A stretch of 64,000 bases of DNA. It comes from Fibrobacter sp. Its GTDB lineage: Bacteria; Fibrobacterota; Fibrobacteria; Fibrobacterales; Fibrobacteraceae. Both the position numbers and the translations under genes were made by a program. Where the stretch lies: NCBI GenBank assembly GCA_024398965.1, contig JAKSIF010000003.1, positions 62,001-126,000 on the forward strand, in the 5' to 3' direction. Shown here piece by piece: positions 51,464 to 64,000 of the stretch (the stretch's first letter is position 1; the number at the start of each line of letters is the position of its first letter). Below the pieces are notes generated by a model. The model saw only the letters and a program-made list of their open reading frames with translations. It was not told where the DNA came from and did no database searches.

Positions 51464-52015
51464 ATGGCTATTACCACATTTGAAGATTTGAAGAAAAGGT
51501 TCGACACTCTCAAGGCGCTGAACGAGAGGAAGGTTGTTGCCGGATGGCTGGATTCCAATGGAACGGCAAGAAAGGCGAAGCAGAACCTGGACTACCGCAA
51601 GAAAACGGGCAAGAGGACTGCTGCACTTCGCGAGCCACCCTCCAATGCGCTTATCGCAAGAACGCTCAACTACGGAAGAAAGGCCGGGACGACCCTTGAG
51701 GGCGTCCATTACAGCGCCATTCCCGCGCGTCCGTTCCTGCGCTTCGCCATGGAGAGGTACAGGGCCTTGATGCCAAAGATCGAACAGAAGTATATCCCCC
51801 TTGTGATTGCTGGAAAGTTCGATGTTGATGCCCTATGCCTTGAGCTGGGCGTAAGATTGAAGGACTGCATCACGCTCGCCATGCGCGACAGCGCAAGATA
51901 CGAGGCGCTGCATGAAGCTACGCTTATCGCGCGACGCAGGGAGAAGAACGACAGTCCGACGCCCCTCATCGACACTCATCAGCTGATTGACTCGGTGACG
52001 TTCGAGGTCAAGTGA
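51464..52015 (+). CDS. phage tail-completion/morphogenesis-like protein (HK97 gp10 or Mu gpG type)
   Basis: 183 residues. The order ALIARTLNYGRKAGTT..., IPARPFLRFAMER, then TPLIDTHQLIDSVTFEVK is the pattern of tail-completion proteins of this type (NPxRPF ... Kxxx.PLIDTGxL..SI). It is alone on the plus strand between leftward modules, 39 bases from the divergent excisionase-like gene, and overlaps the 3' end of folE by 37 bases. Confidence 0.7.
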   Translation: MAITTFEDLKKRFDTLKALNERKVVAGWLDSNGTARKAKQNLDYRKKTGKRTAALREPPSNALIARTLNYGRKAGTTLEGVHYSAIPARPFLRFAMERYRALMPKIEQKYIPLVIAGKFDVDALCLELGVRLKDCITLAMRDSARYEALHEATLIARRREKNDSPTPLIDTHQLIDSVTFEVK

Positions 52016-52542
52016 TTGCGGAACGCTCCGCTGGAATGAACAGTCCGAGTCACCATGGAGACGTTCTTTGCGCCTCTTGCTGTGACACAGGCGTGCTTTC
52101 CTTCGATGCTCACTTCGACGTCCTCTGAACCAGTCGCGAGGTGAATGACCTCGGCAATGTCGCTTCCTATCTTTTCCTGGAGCTGGAGACGCTTTCCCAC
52201 CATTTCCGCGATACGGGCGAACTTGGAAAGTCCGAGAACCTTGCCATGGGGAATGTAGCGGATGGAAACCTTCATGTCGTACATGAGCGCCAGATGATGC
52301 TCACAGTGGCTGAAAATCGTTATGTCGTCAACCTTGACAATCTGCCCATCCGTCTTTTGCTTGAAGCACTTGCCGAACTTCCTTGCAATCTGTTCGTTGG
52401 TGTAGTTCTGGCCTTCGAACATTTCCGCATAATAGTCCGCAACGCGGCGGGGCGTCTCCCGAAGCCCCTCGCGATTCGGATTGTCATTGAGCGCCTGGAG
52501 AAGCTGTCTTACCAGGCTCTCAATTTTCTTCTTCTCGATCAT
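51979..52542 (-). CDS. folE: phage GTP cyclohydrolase I
   Basis: 187 residues. Zinc and catalytic residues: C80, H82, H83 in SHCEHH and C152 in KHACVTARG; GLSKFARI and the QEK substrate motifs are present. It converts GTP to dihydroneopterin triphosphate, the first step toward preQ0. It is the last gene of the operon and overlaps queD by 23 bases, so co-translation is expected. Bringing its own FolE lets the phage avoid host folate-pathway limits. Confidence 0.96.
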   Translation of the reverse strand: MIEKKKIESLVRQLLQALNDNPNREGLRETPRRVADYYAEMFEGQNYTNEQIARKFGKCFKQKTDGQIVKVDDITIFSHCEHHLALMYDMKVSIRYIPHGKVLGLSKFARIAEMVGKRLQLQEKIGSDIAEVIHLATGSEDVEVSIEGKHACVTARGAKNVSMVTRTVHSSGAFRNHLTSNVTESIS

Positions 52543-52861
52543 ATTCCGCGATGTTTCCTTCGCTTTCCTGTACGACGACGCGATAGCAGAACGGCACCTG
52601 TTCGCAAATCCACCTTGCGATGTTTTCCGCAGTCGGATTGAACGGGACTACGTCATTGATGTAGGCGTGGTCCAGCTTCTCGGAAATGCTCTGCTTGATC
52701 TGCTTGAAATCCACGACCATTCCCTGGGCGTTCAGGGTCTTGCTCTTGCAGCAGACCGTAATAATCCAGTTGTGTCCGTGGAGGCCGTTGCACTTGCTTT
52801 CGTAGGGTAATTCCAGACGGTGCGCGCCTGCGATTTCAAAACGCTTGCTTACCTTGAACAT
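52520..52861 (-). CDS. queD: phage 6-carboxytetrahydropterin synthase
   Basis: 113 residues from ATG at 52861 (the frame opens at 52888). Zinc His ligands and nucleophile Cys as in QueD: GAHRLELPY, KCNGLHGHNW, LDHAYIND, QESEGN. About 74 percent identical by eye to the host QueD at 28336, so it was probably taken from a Fibrobacter chromosome. Its start overlaps the queE stop (TAATG). Confidence 0.96.
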   Translation of the reverse strand: MFKVSKRFEIAGAHRLELPYESKCNGLHGHNWIITVCCKSKTLNAQGMVVDFKQIKQSISEKLDHAYINDVVPFNPTAENIARWICEQVPFCYRVVVQESEGNIAEYDREEEN

Positions 52862-53430
52862 TATTCGATTCCTATGAACTTGTGCCATTGAAGTGAAAGA
52901 ATCCAGCCCGGATTCTGCTTGACCAGCTCAATACAGTGGTCAAGATTCTCGCGAACAAGATTGTCTCCATCAAAACAGGGGGAAAGGCACATTCTTCTCG
53001 CTGTCTTGCATGGGGTAGGTAACGGTTCGCCAGCCTTTATGACGAAACGAAGCTCGTCGATATTGTCCGGCTCGATCCTGCTTGTCTTGGGGCTGCAAAC
53101 GATGTAGTCAATCCCTGCGGGAACTGGCTTTGTGCCGTTCGTCTCGATGGACTTGTACCAGCCTTTGAAGGCCTTGATAAGTTCCGCGTCAAGCTGGAGC
53201 GTCGGCTCGCCACCGCAGAAGGAGACGCTACGGCAATTTCCGCCAACTTCCTTCGCCTTTGCGATAATCTGTTCCGCGGTCATTTCCGTGAACGGTTCAT
53301 GATCCGTATCGCAGAAGGGACATTTCATGTTGCATCCGCTGAAACGCACAAAGACCTGTGGCGTTCCTACGCGCTTGCCTTCGCCCTGGATGCTGAAAAA
53401 GATTGTGTTTATCCTGTAGGTCCTAGCCAT
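52861..53430 (-). CDS. queE: phage 7-carboxy-7-deazaguanine synthase
   Basis: 189 residues (MARTYR start; ATG at 53436 also possible). Radical SAM cluster C33-x3-C37-x2-C40 (CNMKCPFC), preceded by IFFSIQGEGKRVGTPQVF and followed by FCGGEPTLQ. Makes CDG from CPH4. It belongs to a different QueE subgroup from the host copy at 27674 (host has a longer C-terminus and other central motifs). Confidence 0.94.
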   Translation of the reverse strand: MARTYRINTIFFSIQGEGKRVGTPQVFVRFSGCNMKCPFCDTDHEPFTEMTAEQIIAKAKEVGGNCRSVSFCGGEPTLQLDAELIKAFKGWYKSIETNGTKPVPAGIDYIVCSPKTSRIEPDNIDELRFVIKAGEPLPTPCKTARRMCLSPCFDGDNLVRENLDHCIELVKQNPGWILSLQWHKFIGIE

Positions 53431-54091
53431 TTTCACAGCCTCCCAGTTTCAAGGCGCGTTCGCGCTGTTTGCAGCTGTCGCACTTTCCACAATGGCGGTC
53501 TCCATTGTTGTAACAGCTCCAGGTGTTCTTTTCATAGTCGATTCCGATCTTGCGCCCGGCCTTGACGATTTCAGCCTTTTCCATCATGGAGAAGGGGGCG
53601 CGGATTCGGACGTTGAAGGCTGGGCTTGTGCCAAGGTTTGCTGCCTTCTCGAAAGCCTTGATGAAGGGAAGGGTGTCGTCATAGTATTGACCGCTTGCAA
53701 GCCCGTTGAAGCCTCCGTAGATTTCGCCTATGCCGTTCACTTCCGCGAACATGACCGCGTAAGAGAGCAGGATTCCGTTCCTGAACTCCACATAGCTTGT
53801 GGGTATGGAGGAATCTATCTGCTTGAAGTCCCTGTTTACGCTGATCTTCGTCTTGGAAATCAGAGAACACTTGCTTCCGGCAAACCCCAGGTCGATGGAG
53901 ATAATCTTGTAGGGCTGTTTCAGTCGCTTCGCGTTCTGCGCGGCATAGGCGATTTCCTTGGATAATGTCTGCTTGTAGTCGAAAATGAGGCAGAAAACCT
54001 TCTTGCCCTGTTTCGTAAGCTGTTCCAGAACAGTCGTGCTGTCAATCCCGCCGGATAGCAGCAACACCGCATCACATTTTGATTTTTGCAT
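53423..54091 (-). CDS. queC: phage preQ0 synthase QueC
   Basis: 222 residues. PP-loop SGGIDSTT at 13-20; C-terminal zinc site NTWSCYNN ... HCGKCDSCKQR. Converts CDG to 7-cyano-7-deazaguanine (preQ0) with ATP and ammonia. The ATG at 54091 lies inside the end of the dpdA-like gene, and its 3' end overlaps queE. Confidence 0.96.
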   Translation of the reverse strand: MQKSKCDAVLLLSGGIDSTTVLEQLTKQGKKVFCLIFDYKQTLSKEIAYAAQNAKRLKQPYKIISIDLGFAGSKCSLISKTKISVNRDFKQIDSSIPTSYVEFRNGILLSYAVMFAEVNGIGEIYGGFNGLASGQYYDDTLPFIKAFEKAANLGTSPAFNVRIRAPFSMMEKAEIVKAGRKIGIDYEKNTWSCYNNGDRHCGKCDSCKQRERALKLGGCENG

Positions 54092-54812
54092 ATTGCATTG
54101 CCTTGAACCATTGTTGTTTGTTGTGGAATCCAAGAGTTTTCTTGTCCTTCTTGAATTTCTTTGGCAGATGGATGTTCTTCATGACTCCATCCTGAAAGAG
54201 GAAGCAGTTTCCGTACCTTTCGCCGAGGCTCCAGGTGCTTGAATCGCTGCTGAAAAAGTGGAACTTGCGCAAAAGGGGCCAGTTCGTACAGCCCAGCGCG
54301 TGAACCTTCGTGTTGTACTTCGCAGCCGTTTCCAGGAAGAAGTAGAGTGGCTTCCAGTCATTGGCCTTTAGCCATTTGCTAGAATCCGTGAATCCGGAGA
54401 GCGAGAGCGCGACGTAGGAAAAGTTCTGGACCATATCAAGCCAGCCTTCCTTCTTGCGTCCAAGATGCCAGACGGGGATGCTCTGCTTGCCTGTGGCCCG
54501 TTCTATGCGGTTGCGGATTTCCTTGACCTTCTCGTAGCCCACAATCTCGTCAATATCCATTTCGATATAGTTGTCGATATGCTCGCACTTGATCCAGTCG
54601 ATATAGGCGTCGATGTACTTGTCGTCAATCTTCTTTCCGCTCGCCATGGCTGTGAAGGCGCCACTATCCGCGATGAAGTGGTTAAATTCACGAACGTCGT
54701 TGCCCATGAGCGACGACTTGTATTCAAAGGACGTAAGGATATTGAGTTCCTTCTTTGGGAACTTTGTGTAGAAATCGCCTACGAGTCCATCTGTTGCCAT
54801 GTGGAGAAGCAT
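54072..54812 (-). CDS. dpdA: DpdA-like DNA-guanine transglycosylase
   Basis: 246 residues. TGT-fold features: IADSGAFTA (D49; TGT has DSGGFQ with the active Asp), YIEMDIDEIVG (86-91), PVWHLGR, VALSLSG, HALGCTNW and FFSSDSSTW (D190), the last two being features of phage DpdA proteins rather than of tRNA-guanine transglycosylases. It lacks the TGT zinc-binding CxCxxC region. It would exchange guanine for preQ0 in phage DNA. The gene starts inside the parB-like stop (TAATG) and is followed by queC/E/D and folE, as in known deazaguanine phages. Confidence 0.82.
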   Translation of the reverse strand: MLLHMATDGLVGDFYTKFPKKELNILTSFEYKSSLMGNDVREFNHFIADSGAFTAMASGKKIDDKYIDAYIDWIKCEHIDNYIEMDIDEIVGYEKVKEIRNRIERATGKQSIPVWHLGRKKEGWLDMVQNFSYVALSLSGFTDSSKWLKANDWKPLYFFLETAAKYNTKVHALGCTNWPLLRKFHFFSSDSSTWSLGERYGNCFLFQDGVMKNIHLPKKFKKDKKTLGFHNKQQWFKAMQYAKIKM

Positions 54813-55916: not shown

Positions 55917-56894
55917 ATGACAAATTACTATGGATATAGAATCAATACTTCAAGACGTGACTTTTTTAAGAAAGAGTTAATTGAGCATAAACGCCTTCGT
56001 CAAGGTTGGGGTTATGATCCTGGCCAAGATTTAAGAAGTATGACTGTAAACGAGGGGGCAGCTCGTAATAAAAGCATGTTTAAGGTTAAACAAGGCGATG
56101 TTCTGTTGGTTCCAGGCCTTTGCTCTCCAGATACTGTGGCGATTGTTCGGGCGACTGAGGATTTTGCTAAGGGATATCGTTTTGAAATTGACCCTAAAGA
56201 GGGGGACTATGGTCATATTTTTCCTGCGGAGTTTGTCACAGAATTTCGACGTCATAATCCTCTTGTAGGTTCACTCAAGGCTTCTTTACGAACTCCCATG
56301 CGTTTTTGGGGACTCAATGATTTTGCGGACGTCATAGAAAGAATGATCGAAGCGCCCAAAGAATCTTTATTGAGCGTAAAAGATTATTACGACCGTTATG
56401 ATGATGTTGAAGAATCTGTTTTTGACGCTTTTTCTGAAGAAATAAAGGATAAACTGTATGTTAATATGAACTCCCAGTTTTCTGAATCAGAATGGGAATT
56501 TGCATTGGTTCGTGGATTGCAGAAGTTATACCCTCATTACAAGGTACTTCGTGTTGGTGGTAAGGCGGAAAAAGAGCATGGCGCTGACATAATTATTAAA
56601 ATTCCATCACCACTCACTTATGATGAATCTTATTATATCATAGCAATTCAAGTCAAGGATTACAGCAATTCTGTAGGTTTCGGTCCTATTGATCAAGTTT
56701 TAAAAGCAGATAACTATCAAGAATGGCATAACGAGCAAAACAAATTGTTGGAGAAGTGGGTAATCCTTACCAAATGTCAGAAAAATCTGAACCTAGAATT
56801 TGTGCAGTATGCAGCGTCTAAAAATGTAAAAGTCATATGGGGTGAAGACTTAAAAGAGTTGCTTTATATAATTGCAATGAAGGGTAGTTTATAG
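55917..56894 (+). CDS. Mrr-like PD-(D/E)XK nuclease, phage-borne restriction candidate
   Basis: 325 residues. The C-terminal half has the nuclease motif: WEFALVRGLQ (E194/E196 region), KEHGADIIIKIP with D224, then IAIQVKDYS with Q245-x-K247, the Mrr-type QxK variant. The N-terminal 110 residues (YYGYRINTSRR, MFKVKQGDVLLVPG, AIVRATEDF) resemble an EVE/PUA-like base-reading fold. A reader plus nuclease is the plan of modification-dependent restriction enzymes. AT-rich, on the plus strand between leftward phage modules, so cargo. Likely used against other phages. Confidence 0.72.
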   Translation: MTNYYGYRINTSRRDFFKKELIEHKRLRQGWGYDPGQDLRSMTVNEGAARNKSMFKVKQGDVLLVPGLCSPDTVAIVRATEDFAKGYRFEIDPKEGDYGHIFPAEFVTEFRRHNPLVGSLKASLRTPMRFWGLNDFADVIERMIEAPKESLLSVKDYYDRYDDVEESVFDAFSEEIKDKLYVNMNSQFSESEWEFALVRGLQKLYPHYKVLRVGGKAEKEHGADIIIKIPSPLTYDESYYIIAIQVKDYSNSVGFGPIDQVLKADNYQEWHNEQNKLLEKWVILTKCQKNLNLEFVQYAASKNVKVIWGEDLKELLYIIAMKGSL

Positions 56895-59970: not shown

Positions 59971-60591
59971 CTATAGGATGATGTGCCTGCCGTCTTCCGT
60001 TAGCAGGGGCAATCCCTGTTCGCTTGAGAGGTATCCGTTGTCGATGATGTTCTTGTCCTGTGCGACAGCGAGAATGAGCTTGTGTGGCTGTTCCACCGTT
60101 GCGAGCGCCTTTCCGGAAGTCAGTTTGAATGAAGCTCCGGGTAAGCCAAGGACGCCTGCAGGCGCCAACGAGGCGACAGTCTTGCGACTTAACTGTTTTC
60201 CCTTGGGTGTATAGACGAAAAAGACGCCATCAACCTCGTCAAGGTATTGCGGGTTTCTGTCCTTTGATAGGTCTGCCGCATTCTGGATGATGTTCTGGGG
60301 TGTTCCCGCGGTACTCTGCTTGAAAAGAATTTTCAGCCTGTCGCGGTAGCTTTTGTCACTTTCGCCATCATCGCGCGGCAGGTTTCGCAGTTTTCCGATA
60401 ATATCAAGCCAGTTCCCGTCCGCTTCTTCGATATTCGCGAAGTTCGCAAGTCTGTAGGAACTGTCCTCAATGTCCTGAAAACAGCCTGTCACCTTCTCAA
60501 TCAAGGCGAGAAGGTTGGTGGATTCCTTGTACTGGGTGATTACAAGGCTTTGCAGCTTTTTCCAGAGATTGTCTATATGTTGGAGAGCCAT
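59971..60591 (-). CDS. DUF2612-type baseplate protein
   Basis: 206 residues from ATG at 60591 (the frame is open to 60750). FQDIEDSSYRLANFANIEEADGNWLDIIGKLRNLPRDDGESDKSYRDRLK is typical of DUF2612, and it follows baseplate J as in Mu-like phages. Start overlaps the upstream stop. Confidence 0.78.
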   Translation of the reverse strand: MALQHIDNLWKKLQSLVITQYKESTNLLALIEKVTGCFQDIEDSSYRLANFANIEEADGNWLDIIGKLRNLPRDDGESDKSYRDRLKILFKQSTAGTPQNIIQNAADLSKDRNPQYLDEVDGVFFVYTPKGKQLSRKTVASLAPAGVLGLPGASFKLTSGKALATVEQPHKLILAVAQDKNIIDNGYLSSEQGLPLLTEDGRHIIL

Positions 60592-61571
60592 TATCCCTCC
60601 AGCGTTACGGAAACGTCCTCTGCAGCGATTGTAACCGTCGTGTCGTCGCTGACGGGGATTCTGCTGCTGGACCAGTTCTCGGAATAGACTTGTGCGACCT
60701 GGACCGTGATTGCATCCACGCCTGTGATTCCGCTGTAGATCGGAACGCACATTCTCTGCGGGATGATATCCTTTCCGCTGGTAAATTCACTTGAAGCCCA
60801 GTCTGAAATGAGCTGCTGGATTTTTTCAGCATAGTCTGTAGGTAGGGCTTCCTCATCATATTGCGTGATGGAGACCTTGACTTTGTAGGCGATGCCCTTG
60901 ATGAACTGGAAACAGACCTTGTGAAGGAAACCTGCCGCATCCTTGGCAATGCCGAGGCTGTCTCCTGTTCCCTTGATTCCCGCAGGCTTGCAGTTCCAAA
61001 TCTTCTGGGCTATATAGCTTTCAACGGTGTTTTCGCGCGTGGCATCCTCAAGAATGGAAATCCAGTCCTTATCGGTCTGGTCAATCATGTCGGTGGAGAA
61101 GCTGGAAGGGACATAGATGGCGAAATGGTGGGGAGGAATACCTTCGGTTTCCACGTCCTCGCAGTTTTCCTTGAGGGAGACGCTGGCTGTGATGTTTTCG
61201 CGAAGGTAGGTCAGCATCCCGTTTGGAGTAGCCAAGCCCTCAAAGGTTGCCTGTTCAATTCTTTCACGCAGCGATTCGTCGCTTTCGCCCTCGTTTCGCG
61301 TAAGTCCTGCAATGGAGGCGAGCATATCCAGGAACGCGCCTGTTGCTGTGGAAACGTCGATGTTTGCGCCTACAGTCTGGATCGCCTGGGCAAGTTCCGT
61401 GTACATATAGGCGAGAAGGTCCACCAGCATCCCATCGGGTGCGCTGGGGTCAAGGTTAATGCCTGTGCCAAAGACTTCCATGAACGCCTTGGCTATGGCC
61501 TGGCGGATTTCACGAAAGCTCTTGATGGAAATTCCGGAATTGCTGTCGATTGCGACTGCGCCTATTGCCAT
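60591..61571 (-). CDS. baseplate J family protein
   Basis: 326 residues. SISIKSFREIRQAIAKAF-like N-terminus, DGMLVDLLAYMYTELAQAI, TATGAFLDMLASIAGLTRNEGESDESLRERI: the baseplate J/gp47 pattern. It forms the baseplate wedge of contractile tails. Confidence 0.9.
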   Translation of the reverse strand: MAIGAVAIDSNSGISIKSFREIRQAIAKAFMEVFGTGINLDPSAPDGMLVDLLAYMYTELAQAIQTVGANIDVSTATGAFLDMLASIAGLTRNEGESDESLRERIEQATFEGLATPNGMLTYLRENITASVSLKENCEDVETEGIPPHHFAIYVPSSFSTDMIDQTDKDWISILEDATRENTVESYIAQKIWNCKPAGIKGTGDSLGIAKDAAGFLHKVCFQFIKGIAYKVKVSITQYDEEALPTDYAEKIQQLISDWASSEFTSGKDIIPQRMCVPIYSGITGVDAITVQVAQVYSENWSSSRIPVSDDTTVTIAAEDVSVTLEG

Positions 61572-61573
61572 AT

Positions 61574-61924
61574 CTAAAACGCTCCGATGATATTTTCATC
61601 GTCCTTGCTTCGGACGCTGAACTTTCCGGAAATGTTTCTTCCGTCTGCCTTGATTTCTATGGAGACCACCTCCTTGACGCCATCGACTTTTTCGATCTTC
61701 TCGCGGAGTATTTTCTGGGCGACGTCAAGATGGTTCATGGGAAGCCCCGCGACCTTTTCAAGCCAGGGGACGCCATGCTCTCGGTTCGTGAATGCTTCGC
61801 CTTCTTCTGTCCTTAAAAGACAGTGAACCGCCTGCTGGACGCGCTTCTGCATACGCGAAATGCGGCAGATATGGTCTCCTTGCAGGAAAATGTCGTGGGA
61901 ACTGTTGAGGGCCAATTCATTCAT
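61574..61924 (-). CDS. gp25-like baseplate wedge protein
   Basis: 116 residues. QKRVQQAVHCLLRTEEGEAFTNREHGVPW is the gp25/Mu gp46 pattern. It lies directly upstream of baseplate J. Its first codons and upstream 70 bases recur at 63349-63472. Confidence 0.8.
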   Translation of the reverse strand: MNELALNSSHDIFLQGDHICRISRMQKRVQQAVHCLLRTEEGEAFTNREHGVPWLEKVAGLPMNHLDVAQKILREKIEKVDGVKEVVSIEIKADGRNISGKFSVRSKDDENIIGAF

Positions 61925-61997
61925 GGTCCTTAAATTAGGTCAAAGGGATTTAATAGCGAGAATCACGCCAAATTAAGGCAAAAGAGACCAAAAAAAC
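61874..61997. repeat. direct repeat A: start of gp25-like gene and its leader
   Basis: This 124-base segment contains the first 17 codons and the upstream leader of the gp25-like gene. Repeat B (63349-63472) matches it with about ten differences. The pair flanks the DUF2971 gene. Confidence 0.88.
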
Positions 61998-62042
61998 GAT
62001 TATATTTTTTTTTTGTGTTAAACTTTTTTAGGGTAAAAGAAA

Positions 62043-63269
62043 ATGAAGAATAATGACACAAATAATTCCCTACAAATCCTTGAAGACTTTAATAAAACTT
62101 ATTTTGATAGAAAAACAACAAATAGTTCGGAAACTCAAATAGCTCAGTTGTTTGAAAATAATTGTTCAAATTGGGAAAAAAATATACACCTTCTTTACCA
62201 TGGTAATTCTGTTGATGGAATGTATGGTTCCGCGCTACTTACATATTCTGCTATTATTGATCATATTGAAGTGTTTAGTCTCGATCGTTTAGAAAAATTA
62301 CGAAAAAGGATTGACAATTACGAAAAAAAAGTAAAATTCCATTTAAAACGAAAAGCAGAATTGTATAGCAATCTTGCAAATGTGTACGCGAAAAAGAATC
62401 TTGATAATGATTCTGTAGAATGTTTCAAAAAATATTTTTTCTATTTATTTAGTGAAGCGAATAAAGAAATTCATGAAGAAATAATTTGTTTTGCATTTCA
62501 TAGTCTTTCAAAACACATGTTTTACAATTTAAGTGAAGAAACGTTGAATGTTTCATCTCCATTAATGTTTAATGATGTTTTTGATTGTCCTTTAATTAAG
62601 TTGCTTGACAATGATGATGGCCCTTCAAAGTTAAAAAAGAGAGCCTTGTGTGACTGTGTAAAAATAGCATGTTTTGATAAGAACGAATTCTTGCCAACAG
62701 TTGAAGATTTGCTCTTGCAAAAGAGACGTAAAAAAAATGAAGAAAATAATGAAGATGAATATTGCAATGAACTTTTATGGAGTCATTATGCAGATTATCA
62801 CAAAGGCATTTGCATTGAATATGTTTTTAATTCTTCTTTATTTAATTCCGCACAAACCGATTCCACGATAGTGTCTTTCTTTAAAGATGTTAACTATCTT
62901 GATAATATTGATTCAATAAAGAATGGGACATACATAAATTTACTTGATGGATTTTTTGTAAAATCAAGAGCTTGGCGGTATGAAAATGAACTAAGATTCT
63001 TCCATTTTGATTTGAACGGTTCTGGTGATTATAGTTCCGTAAAAATTCCAAATTGTGTGAAGTCTATAACATTTGGTGCTCAATGCCCTGAAAAGGATAA
63101 GATTCTCGTCATGAAACTCATGCATAATAGGAATTATTCCTTTAATGGTCGAAGTGATAATAAAATCGAATTTTATCAAATGAAACCTGACGATAAGATT
63201 TTTGGAAAAGTAAAAAGAGAATTGATTACGCTTAAAAAAGATAAAGTACATGTAAAAGGATTAATTTAG
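62043..63269 (+). CDS. DUF2971-domain protein, AT-rich phage cargo
   Basis: 408 residues. N-terminal half is helical, perhaps TPR-like (YSNLANVYAKKNLDNDSVECFKKYFFYL). The C-terminal half fits DUF2971: PLMFNDVFDCPL, LLWSHYADYHKGICIEY, WRYENELRFF. DUF2971 proteins are of unknown biochemistry and often found among anti-phage genes. Very low GC, opposite strand to the tail genes, flanked by direct repeats. A defence or superinfection-exclusion role is inferred. Confidence 0.75.
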   Translation: MKNNDTNNSLQILEDFNKTYFDRKTTNSSETQIAQLFENNCSNWEKNIHLLYHGNSVDGMYGSALLTYSAIIDHIEVFSLDRLEKLRKRIDNYEKKVKFHLKRKAELYSNLANVYAKKNLDNDSVECFKKYFFYLFSEANKEIHEEIICFAFHSLSKHMFYNLSEETLNVSSPLMFNDVFDCPLIKLLDNDDGPSKLKKRALCDCVKIACFDKNEFLPTVEDLLLQKRRKKNEENNEDEYCNELLWSHYADYHKGICIEYVFNSSLFNSAQTDSTIVSFFKDVNYLDNIDSIKNGTYINLLDGFFVKSRAWRYENELRFFHFDLNGSGDYSSVKIPNCVKSITFGAQCPEKDKILVMKLMHNRNYSFNGRSDNKIEFYQMKPDDKIFGKVKRELITLKKDKVHVKGLI

Positions 63270-63287
63270 TGGAGGGTAAATCAGTTT

Positions 63288-63399
63288 TTGGGAGGTAAAT
63301 AAACGCATGGTGAACCTTTTTCGCTATGCGATGAACGCGAGCGATGCTGTCTCTTTGCAGGAAAATGTCGTGGGAACTGTTGAGGGCCAATTCATTCAT
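63288..63399 (-). pseudogene. truncated gp25-like gene start
   Basis: Translating leftward from ATG at 63399 gives MNELALNSSHDIFLQRD, then SIARVHRIAKKVHHA, which matches the intact gp25-like protein for about 33 residues (identical for the first 15), after which similarity stops. It is a remnant of a second allele, left when cargo inserted. Confidence 0.75.
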
Positions 63400-63472
63400 G
63401 AACATTAAATTAGGTCAAAGGGATTTAATAGCGAGAATTACGCCAAATAAAAGCAAAAGAGACCAAAAAAAC
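63349..63472. repeat. direct repeat B
   Basis: Partner of the segment at 61874-61997; about 92 percent identical over 124 bases. Confidence 0.88.
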
Positions 63473-63579
63473 ATTTGAAAAATATAAATTGTCGTTTTGA
63501 TTTTGGAGATTACGATTGTGAGAAAATTTAGTGAATTAGAAAAAAAATAATAAAGTCTTTAGTAGAGGGGGCAAATGAT

Positions 63580-64000
63580 GTGAAAAGCAATTTCCCCATC
63601 AATATTCTTGATAAATGGTTCTGCACTTATAAATTTGATTTTTATGGAAACAATCCTGAAAAGCCGATCCTGATTTTTAGAGTTCCCAAGGGAAGTGTCG
63701 TAAAAGTGGATGATGTTATTTCAATAAGCATGAAGCTGTTTGAAATATCAATGCTTCTGAATTTTTTGGAGGAAAATGGTTTAATTCAACTAATAAATTA
63801 TAATGGTATTGTTCTTCGTGAATGGACGCCTAATGGGAACATTACAAATTATGACGATCTAACTTATGTTATTGATAAAAAAGTTGCAGATGCTCTGGTA
63901 AAATGCATCAACAATTCAGTATTTGTTGGTCAGACTTTAAAGGACATGGTTGATAATGATTTTAAATCCATTGAAGAACAGGCATTAGACGAAGCAAAGA
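63580..64000 (+). CDS. partial AT-rich cargo gene running off the window
   Basis: An open frame continues from 63547 to the end of the window (about 140 residues from GTG 63580, with GAGGGG 9 bases before it). It contains KPILIFRVPKGSVVKVDDVISISMKLFEISMLLNFLEENG. A second possible start, GTG at 63518 with GGAG upstream, is separated from this frame by one missing A in an eight-A run (63540-63547). Either 63580 is the true start or the gene is frameshifted. No family recognised. Confidence 0.5.
   Translation, partial: MKSNFPINILDKWFCTYKFDFYGNNPEKPILIFRVPKGSVVKVDDVISISMKLFEISMLLNFLEENGLIQLINYNGIVLREWTPNGNITNYDDLTYVIDKKVADALVKCINNSVFVGQTLKDMVDNDFKSIEEQALDEAK

Follow-up and report, generated by a model that had tools for sequence, protein, structure and literature searches.

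Why should the start of one baseplate gene occur twice in a Fibrobacter prophage, each time followed by a divergent cargo gene? The question is raised by a stretch of 64,000 nucleotides, called the window here (G000:C3:62001-126000), from a 3.59 Mb genome of the genus Fibrobacter. The original prediction held that a 124-base block is present twice, first in an intact gp25-like gene and then in a truncated remnant, and that the cargo genes next to the blocks reflect repeated acquisition by recombination at one site. The relevant features of the window are the following.

60591 to 61571, minus strand: J-like baseplate wedge gene, 326 aa, directly after W (PHROG 6, 9e-24)
61574 to 61924, minus strand: intact gp25-like or W baseplate wedge gene, 116 aa (PHROG 120, 4.7e-19)
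61874 to 61997, minus strand: block copy 1, first 17 codons of W plus a 73-nt leader (94.4% identical to 63349-63472)
61979 to 61993, minus strand: leader box TTTTGGTCTCTTTTG, at the cargo edge of the W leader (three exact matches in the 3.6 Mb genome)
62043 to 63269, plus strand: cargo gene 1, 408 aa, DUF2971, phage-defence candidate PDC-S31 (Pfam, PADLOC, PHROG)
63280 to 63399, minus strand: remnant of a second W allele, about 40 codons, of an L135-like phage lineage (comparison of nt 49-117)
63349 to 63472, minus strand: block copy 2, start of the W remnant plus leader (block alignment)
63518 to 64000, plus strand: cargo gene 2, 270 aa from the GTG at 63580, running on to 64392 (open reading frame list)

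The descriptive part of the prediction is borne out. The two blocks align without gaps at 94.4% identity (E ~1e-50), and each is made up of 51 nt of W coding sequence and 73 nt of leader; the first lies in the intact gene, the second in the remnant, and a divergent cargo gene follows each of them. The intact gene belongs by its PHROG match to the baseplate wedge family. Its protein is found at 99–100% identity in G031 and G037, and all named relatives of W come from Fibrobacter or Fibrobacterales. Past position 64000, the contig continues with gpV (64394-65098), then D, U, the tape measure, tube, sheath and head genes, and the cargo is thus located exactly between V and W. As for a third copy of the block, to be looked for beyond 64000, none is present in the next 13 kb; a partial one is found instead on contig C11 of the same genome, outside the prophage (W start and leader, 66 nt at 92%). 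This C11 piece, of 120 bp, is 99% identical to phage G031.

The prediction also spoke of duplicated gene starts. Two W starts are indeed present, but they come from two phage lineages and not from a duplication. Past codon 16, the nucleotide identity of the remnant is 80% to the W of another lineage versus 52% to the intact copy; over W nt 49-117, 55 of 69 positions agree with the W of the IMG/VR phage contig L135, versus 36 of 69 with the intact window copy. Since the remnant follows the W of another lineage past codon 16, it is best read as a recombination footprint, left by the joining of two phage segments, and not as a copy of the intact gene. A simple tandem duplication confined to the W start of this phage, followed later by the insertion of cargo, would be in line with the 94% identity over 124 bp and with the two window leaders, which are 89% alike and closer to each other than either is to any other leader found. 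The lineage of remnant codons 17 to 40 led us to reject this alternative, which appears very improbable.

Cargo gene 1 matches DUF2971 in Pfam (1.6e-6), PDC-S31 in PADLOC (1.2e-26) and PHROG 1762 (2e-22); the literature searched, which covers few subscription papers or preprints, holds no matching account of DUF2971 in defence. Cargo gene 2, which ends at 64392 and converges on gpV, has no match in Pfam or PADLOC. Its frame is broken by an A8 tract between the likely start at 63518 and the GTG at 63580, and chromosomal homologues elsewhere in the genus have a longer N-terminus; decay, slippage or a sequencing error are possible causes of this break. No close homologue of either gene was found in another V–W site, and Rfam gave no credible RNA element in the cargo region of the window.

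The V–W interval was compared in about a dozen related phages, many of these relatives being MAG contigs truncated at the contig end. The gap measures 0.6–4.3 kb and holds at least nine different cargo sets:

G031: a 459-aa gene
G012: 505-aa and 100-aa genes
G004: three small genes
G062 and G069: HTH, M78 peptidase, DUF4417 and 127-aa genes
G014 and phage L136: DUF6088-AbiEii and a GNAT gene
L135: 495-aa and 199-aa genes
L137: PDC-M09B/A
L138: a 342-aa gene and smaller genes
L134: a 272-aa gene and two transposase-like genes

Recognised defence families are detected by PADLOC among this cargo, namely AbiEii (1.9e-103), PDC-M09A/B (1.8e-97 and 3.7e-151) and HNH, in addition to the PDC-S31 of the window. 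The clearest case of presence and absence is given by the G042/G069 pair, where the flanks are 99% identical and exactly 1,803 bp of G069 cargo are missing from G042. In the distant relatives G038, G022 and G067, V and W are about 0.4–0.5 kb apart, with at most one small co-directional gene inside. No W gene was found on plasmids. The V–W gap is short, varies in content and is bounded by two conserved phage genes; it is a cargo hotspot with turnover in a Fibrobacter contractile-tail prophage family, whose cargo may defend lysogens. The variable cargo, the G069/G042 pair and the defence-family matches together support the predicted repeated acquisition at one site, and an arrangement fixed in all relatives, which would have spoken against it, is not what is observed. 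Another V–W cargo gene, truncated, is followed in IMG/VR contig 2849557182 (L167:6947-10218) by genes that look, by eye, beta-lactamase-like and tetracycline ribosomal-protection-like.

How cargo could be added at this place is suggested by the W leader. Its body of evidence is an incongruence: the intact W body is 98–99% identical to those of phages G031 and L134, yet the leader is only 52–55% identical to theirs, and a comparison of G042 with L136 likewise gives 63% for the leader and 95% for the W body. Because the W body reaches 98% and the leader only 55% to G031, the window leader is recombinant relative to W, the two having had different histories. Crossovers at the conserved W start would be expected to leave such a pattern. 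The leader box is kept in most phage lineages examined, and its exact matches in the genome are confined to both window leaders and contig C11. The conserved leader presumably carries the W promoter; consensus sigma-70 promoters showed no excess over shuffles. Some W leaders (L027:7025-7110, L037:6870-6955, L094:18635-18715) contain a hairpin resembling a terminator, with a run of T, about 20 nt ahead of the W start, a feature absent from the W leader of the window and from some others.

The leader (box TTTTGGTSTCTTTTG plus the first W codons) might alternatively be a dedicated recombination or integration site of an unknown recombinase. In most of the phage lineages compared, the box does stand at the edge of the cargo; it is almost unique in the genome, and the high identity of C11 and both window copies stops near W codon 17. 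However, truncation points differ at other loci (W codon 30, W codon 66, J codon 55, J codon 190), the V side has no matching box, and a promoter is the simpler account of box conservation. A dedicated site is thus quite improbable, and ordinary crossovers within conserved sequence remain the preferred reading.

The following history may be proposed. V and W are read one way, and cargo would lodge between the V stop and the conserved W leader. Phages recombining at the conserved 3' end of V and at the W leader or start would gain and swap cargo, which could be lost again by deletion. In the window, a segment comprising V, cargo 2, a leader and W of lineage B would have been joined, in one event, to a segment comprising cargo 1, a leader, W of lineage A and J. 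This join would have stranded 40 codons of W-B between the two cargoes, the complete W-A serving the phage. Cargo would also be exchanged between the phage hotspot and the host chromosome. The account as a whole (V–W cargo swap by phage recombination, a two-segment join in the window, phage–host cargo exchange) is considered likely; it rests throughout on the comparison of genomes, recombination itself being read from sequence. Directly visible in the sequences are the hotspot, the turnover of its cargo, the foreign W remnant and the incongruence of leader and W; we infer the succession of events, homologous recombination as the process, and the defence of lysogens.

Exchange with the host is suggested by V'-cargo-W' segments that are also present in host chromosomes, three of them in the repeat arrays described below. 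They were sought genus-wide in 80 Fibrobacter genomes, most of them drafts. V fragments away from V–W phage loci occur in six genomes, and all of them are the 3' terminal 34–52 codons. Almost all isolated pieces of W and J are 5' ends; the exception is on G071 C53, a contig that begins inside W. No isolated short fragments of D or sheath were found, D occurring only in prophage-type loci and sheath only as full or contig-edge matches. With V 3' ends and W or J 5' ends isolated and no such pieces of D and sheath, the remnants are therefore centred on cargo. One piece, on G071 C64, begins at V codon 175, includes PDC-M09 cargo and stops at W codon 66; over 2.85 kb it is 97.7% identical to phage L137. 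Another, on G037 C5, runs from V' as far as J codon 55, and its cargo is that of phage L134, which it matches at about 95%. At a LysR-side host locus, the stretch from V' through cargo to leader is 98–100% identical between G066 and G075, although the flanks are only about 80–88% identical. G022 has other cargo between the same V'/W' ends, though its flanks are nearer to those of G075, and in G042 the site is empty, the flanks lying 19 bp apart. A tRNA attachment site was considered for the chromosomal pieces and dismissed, there being no tRNA at those loci. In three genomes the LysR-side site (L119, L124, L126) holds V'/W' cassettes; in others it is occupied by different insertions, ATPase-like genes among them.

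These pieces could also be ordinary decayed prophages in which selection has kept the useful cargo, with no capture involved. Grounded prophages are known gene reservoirs (PMC6379469), selection alone would likewise centre remnants on cargo, and the LysR-side locus, C11 and G028 fragments are without array repeat on both sides. Yet the G071 C64 and G037 C5 fragments stop exactly at array repeats on both sides, the distal copy being truncated in G071, and the third fragment (W-J, G071 C53) ends exactly at the repeat on its one visible side, the other being off the contig. The G071 piece is moreover still nearly identical to its phage with everything else gone. Decay and selection are thus an unlikely explanation, and we retain the exchange of cargo between phage and chromosome.

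The array repeat has a 35-nt consensus, RTCTTATAGGGGCTCTTTATGAGCCGAGGTAAAAC, which forms a hairpin and is found in 55 of the 80 genomes with at most three mismatches; a reversed control pattern matched none of the 80. Its copies are mostly arranged in same-strand runs (examples are L217, L219, L222, L225, L229, L242, L246 and others). Two stems and symmetric internal loops make up the fold, in which the inner stem shows covariation between clades, from GGCTC/GAGCC to GGTTC/GAACC. By length and hairpin the repeat is of the direct palindromic type of 21–48 nt seen in CRISPR. The short uniform spacers of CRISPR are not seen: 33 array loci have 107 intervals of 157–5145 bp, most with a small ORF, the only shorter ones being intervals of 56–57 bp, found five times next to a degenerate repeat at one array end (L233, L236, L240, L246, L248). 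A classical CRISPR array around the G037 and G071 fragments was accordingly ruled out, the intervals there being 0.16–3.9 kb. The strict repeat is absent from the window's own genome, and the arrays therefore bear on the wider fate of the cargo and not on the window. A weak array-like repeat, with five mismatches, lies in that genome about 1.1 kb from the C11 W-start fragment (L094:17567-17601). In IMG/VR the strict repeat has no match, and a divergent repeat type matched only the contig of phage L134. There (L134:3760-4000), the V–W cargo carries the divergent repeat after a leader-like sequence, as if at an array start of its own.

Whole inserts recur with the same ends across different species and array positions. 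A 1.72-kb HipA insert is whole in G010, G047, G044 and G002, and nearly whole in G023, at 95–98% identity; other arrays share a 381-bp insert at 98% and a 237-bp insert at 99.6%. Conversely, different inserts occupy orthologous host sites whose two flanks are conserved (e.g., G002, G043, G044). An assembly artefact of draft genomes might be suspected, many loci being on MAG contigs and repeats often breaking contigs. Several independent assemblies agree, however, high-completeness genomes included, and full-length inserts recur as just described, so that such an artefact is hardly credible.

The machinery that builds the arrays may be indicated by their upstream side. At least 20 loci share a conserved leader ahead of the first repeat. 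Complete and adjacent cas1 and cas2 genes lie directly upstream of the first repeat in G047, G007, G028, G029 and G038, and 3' remnants of cas2 are upstream in seven more arrays. The profiles matched are Cas1 TIGR03639 (7.8e-82, type II) and Cas2 TIGR01573 (9e-10). The active-site residues of Cas1, E, H and E, are kept in an alignment with S. pyogenes Cas1 (4zkj). In the flanks of these loci, no cas9-sized ORF is present beside cas1 in four of the five; the sequence of the fifth (G047) stops about 1 kb past cas1. Inspection by eye of the ORFs near eight arrays revealed no integron integrase, and the repeat, which ends in RTCTTAT and GTAAAAC, lacks the attC core GTTRRRY/RYYYAAC.

Cas1–Cas2 would be the enzyme making the array insertions, and acquisition would take place at the leader-proximal end. 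The G071 fragment sits directly at the array leader; the G037 fragment comes first among the inserts of its cluster, at a place where the orthologous G011 array carries another insert; the first G047 insert is a DUF2213 phage-gene fragment cut at the repeat. No PAM-like motif was evident at the fragment ends, with only two well-defined source phages for the comparison. We lean, with some reserve, towards an integron-like system made from CRISPR adaptation parts, in which a stand-alone type II Cas1–Cas2 would insert kilobase pieces, V–W defence cargo included, beside the leader, duplicating the 35-nt repeat and building mobile gene-cassette arrays. Such Cas1 gene-cassette arrays have no precedent in the literature searched, which covers few subscription papers or preprints, and the chances seem slightly in favour of the linked arrays being categorically new.

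Compared with type II CRISPR arrays, these arrays have in common a 35-nt hairpin repeat, a conserved leader, adjacent cas1-cas2 and the Cas1 active-site residues, but their intervals are of 157–5145 bp and carry genes, versus about 30 bp, and no cas9-sized ORF lies beside cas1 in the four loci with enough flank. With integrons they share mostly single-gene cassettes, parted by a folded repeat resembling a recombination site, and the presence of the same cassette in different arrays and positions; they differ in that no integrase gene was recognised beside the arrays read and in that the repeat has no RYYYAAC/GTTRRRY boxes. If built by Cas1–Cas2, the arrays would represent a second natural way of gene-cassette capture besides integrons, with gene-sized DNA handled by Cas1–Cas2, and would bear on the first formation of gene cassettes, because phage fragments in them are cut at the repeat. 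They also suggest where new defence genes may be sought in rumen bacteria.

The V–W hotspot itself appears to belong with the known phage defence hotspots, at a new site. The antiviral hotspots of P2/P4 prophages are small high-turnover loci beside cos with diverse defence genes (PMC9122126); like V–W, they span about 1–5 kb between two conserved phage genes and sometimes hold several defence genes at once. V–W differs by its phage family, by its position inside the baseplate operon, where the P2/P4 loci lie beside cos, by the footprints of a second W allele, and by copies in host chromosomes and Cas1–Cas2 arrays. Grounded prophages acting as recombination buffers (PMC6379469) are similar in that host-resident phage fragments exchange genes with incoming DNA, but only cargo with short V'/W' ends is seen here, three times between array repeats. 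Lateral transduction of defence genes (PMC12829572) likewise moves such genes between phage and chromosome, whereas for the Fibrobacter cargo no att-site adjacency or packaging in series is seen. V–W would thus add a baseplate-operon site to the known phage defence hotspots, from a little-studied phylum and with a legible footprint of cargo addition.

Two further observations concern the window. At 55917-56894, another lone divergent gene stands among the late genes (325 aa, of restriction-endonuclease type by eye), possibly marking a second cargo site. At 51979-54812, a run of genes identified by eye as folE, queD, queE and queC, with a queuine tRNA-ribosyltransferase-like gene (PHROG 887, 1.5e-39), suggests a 7-deazaguanine modification of the phage DNA.
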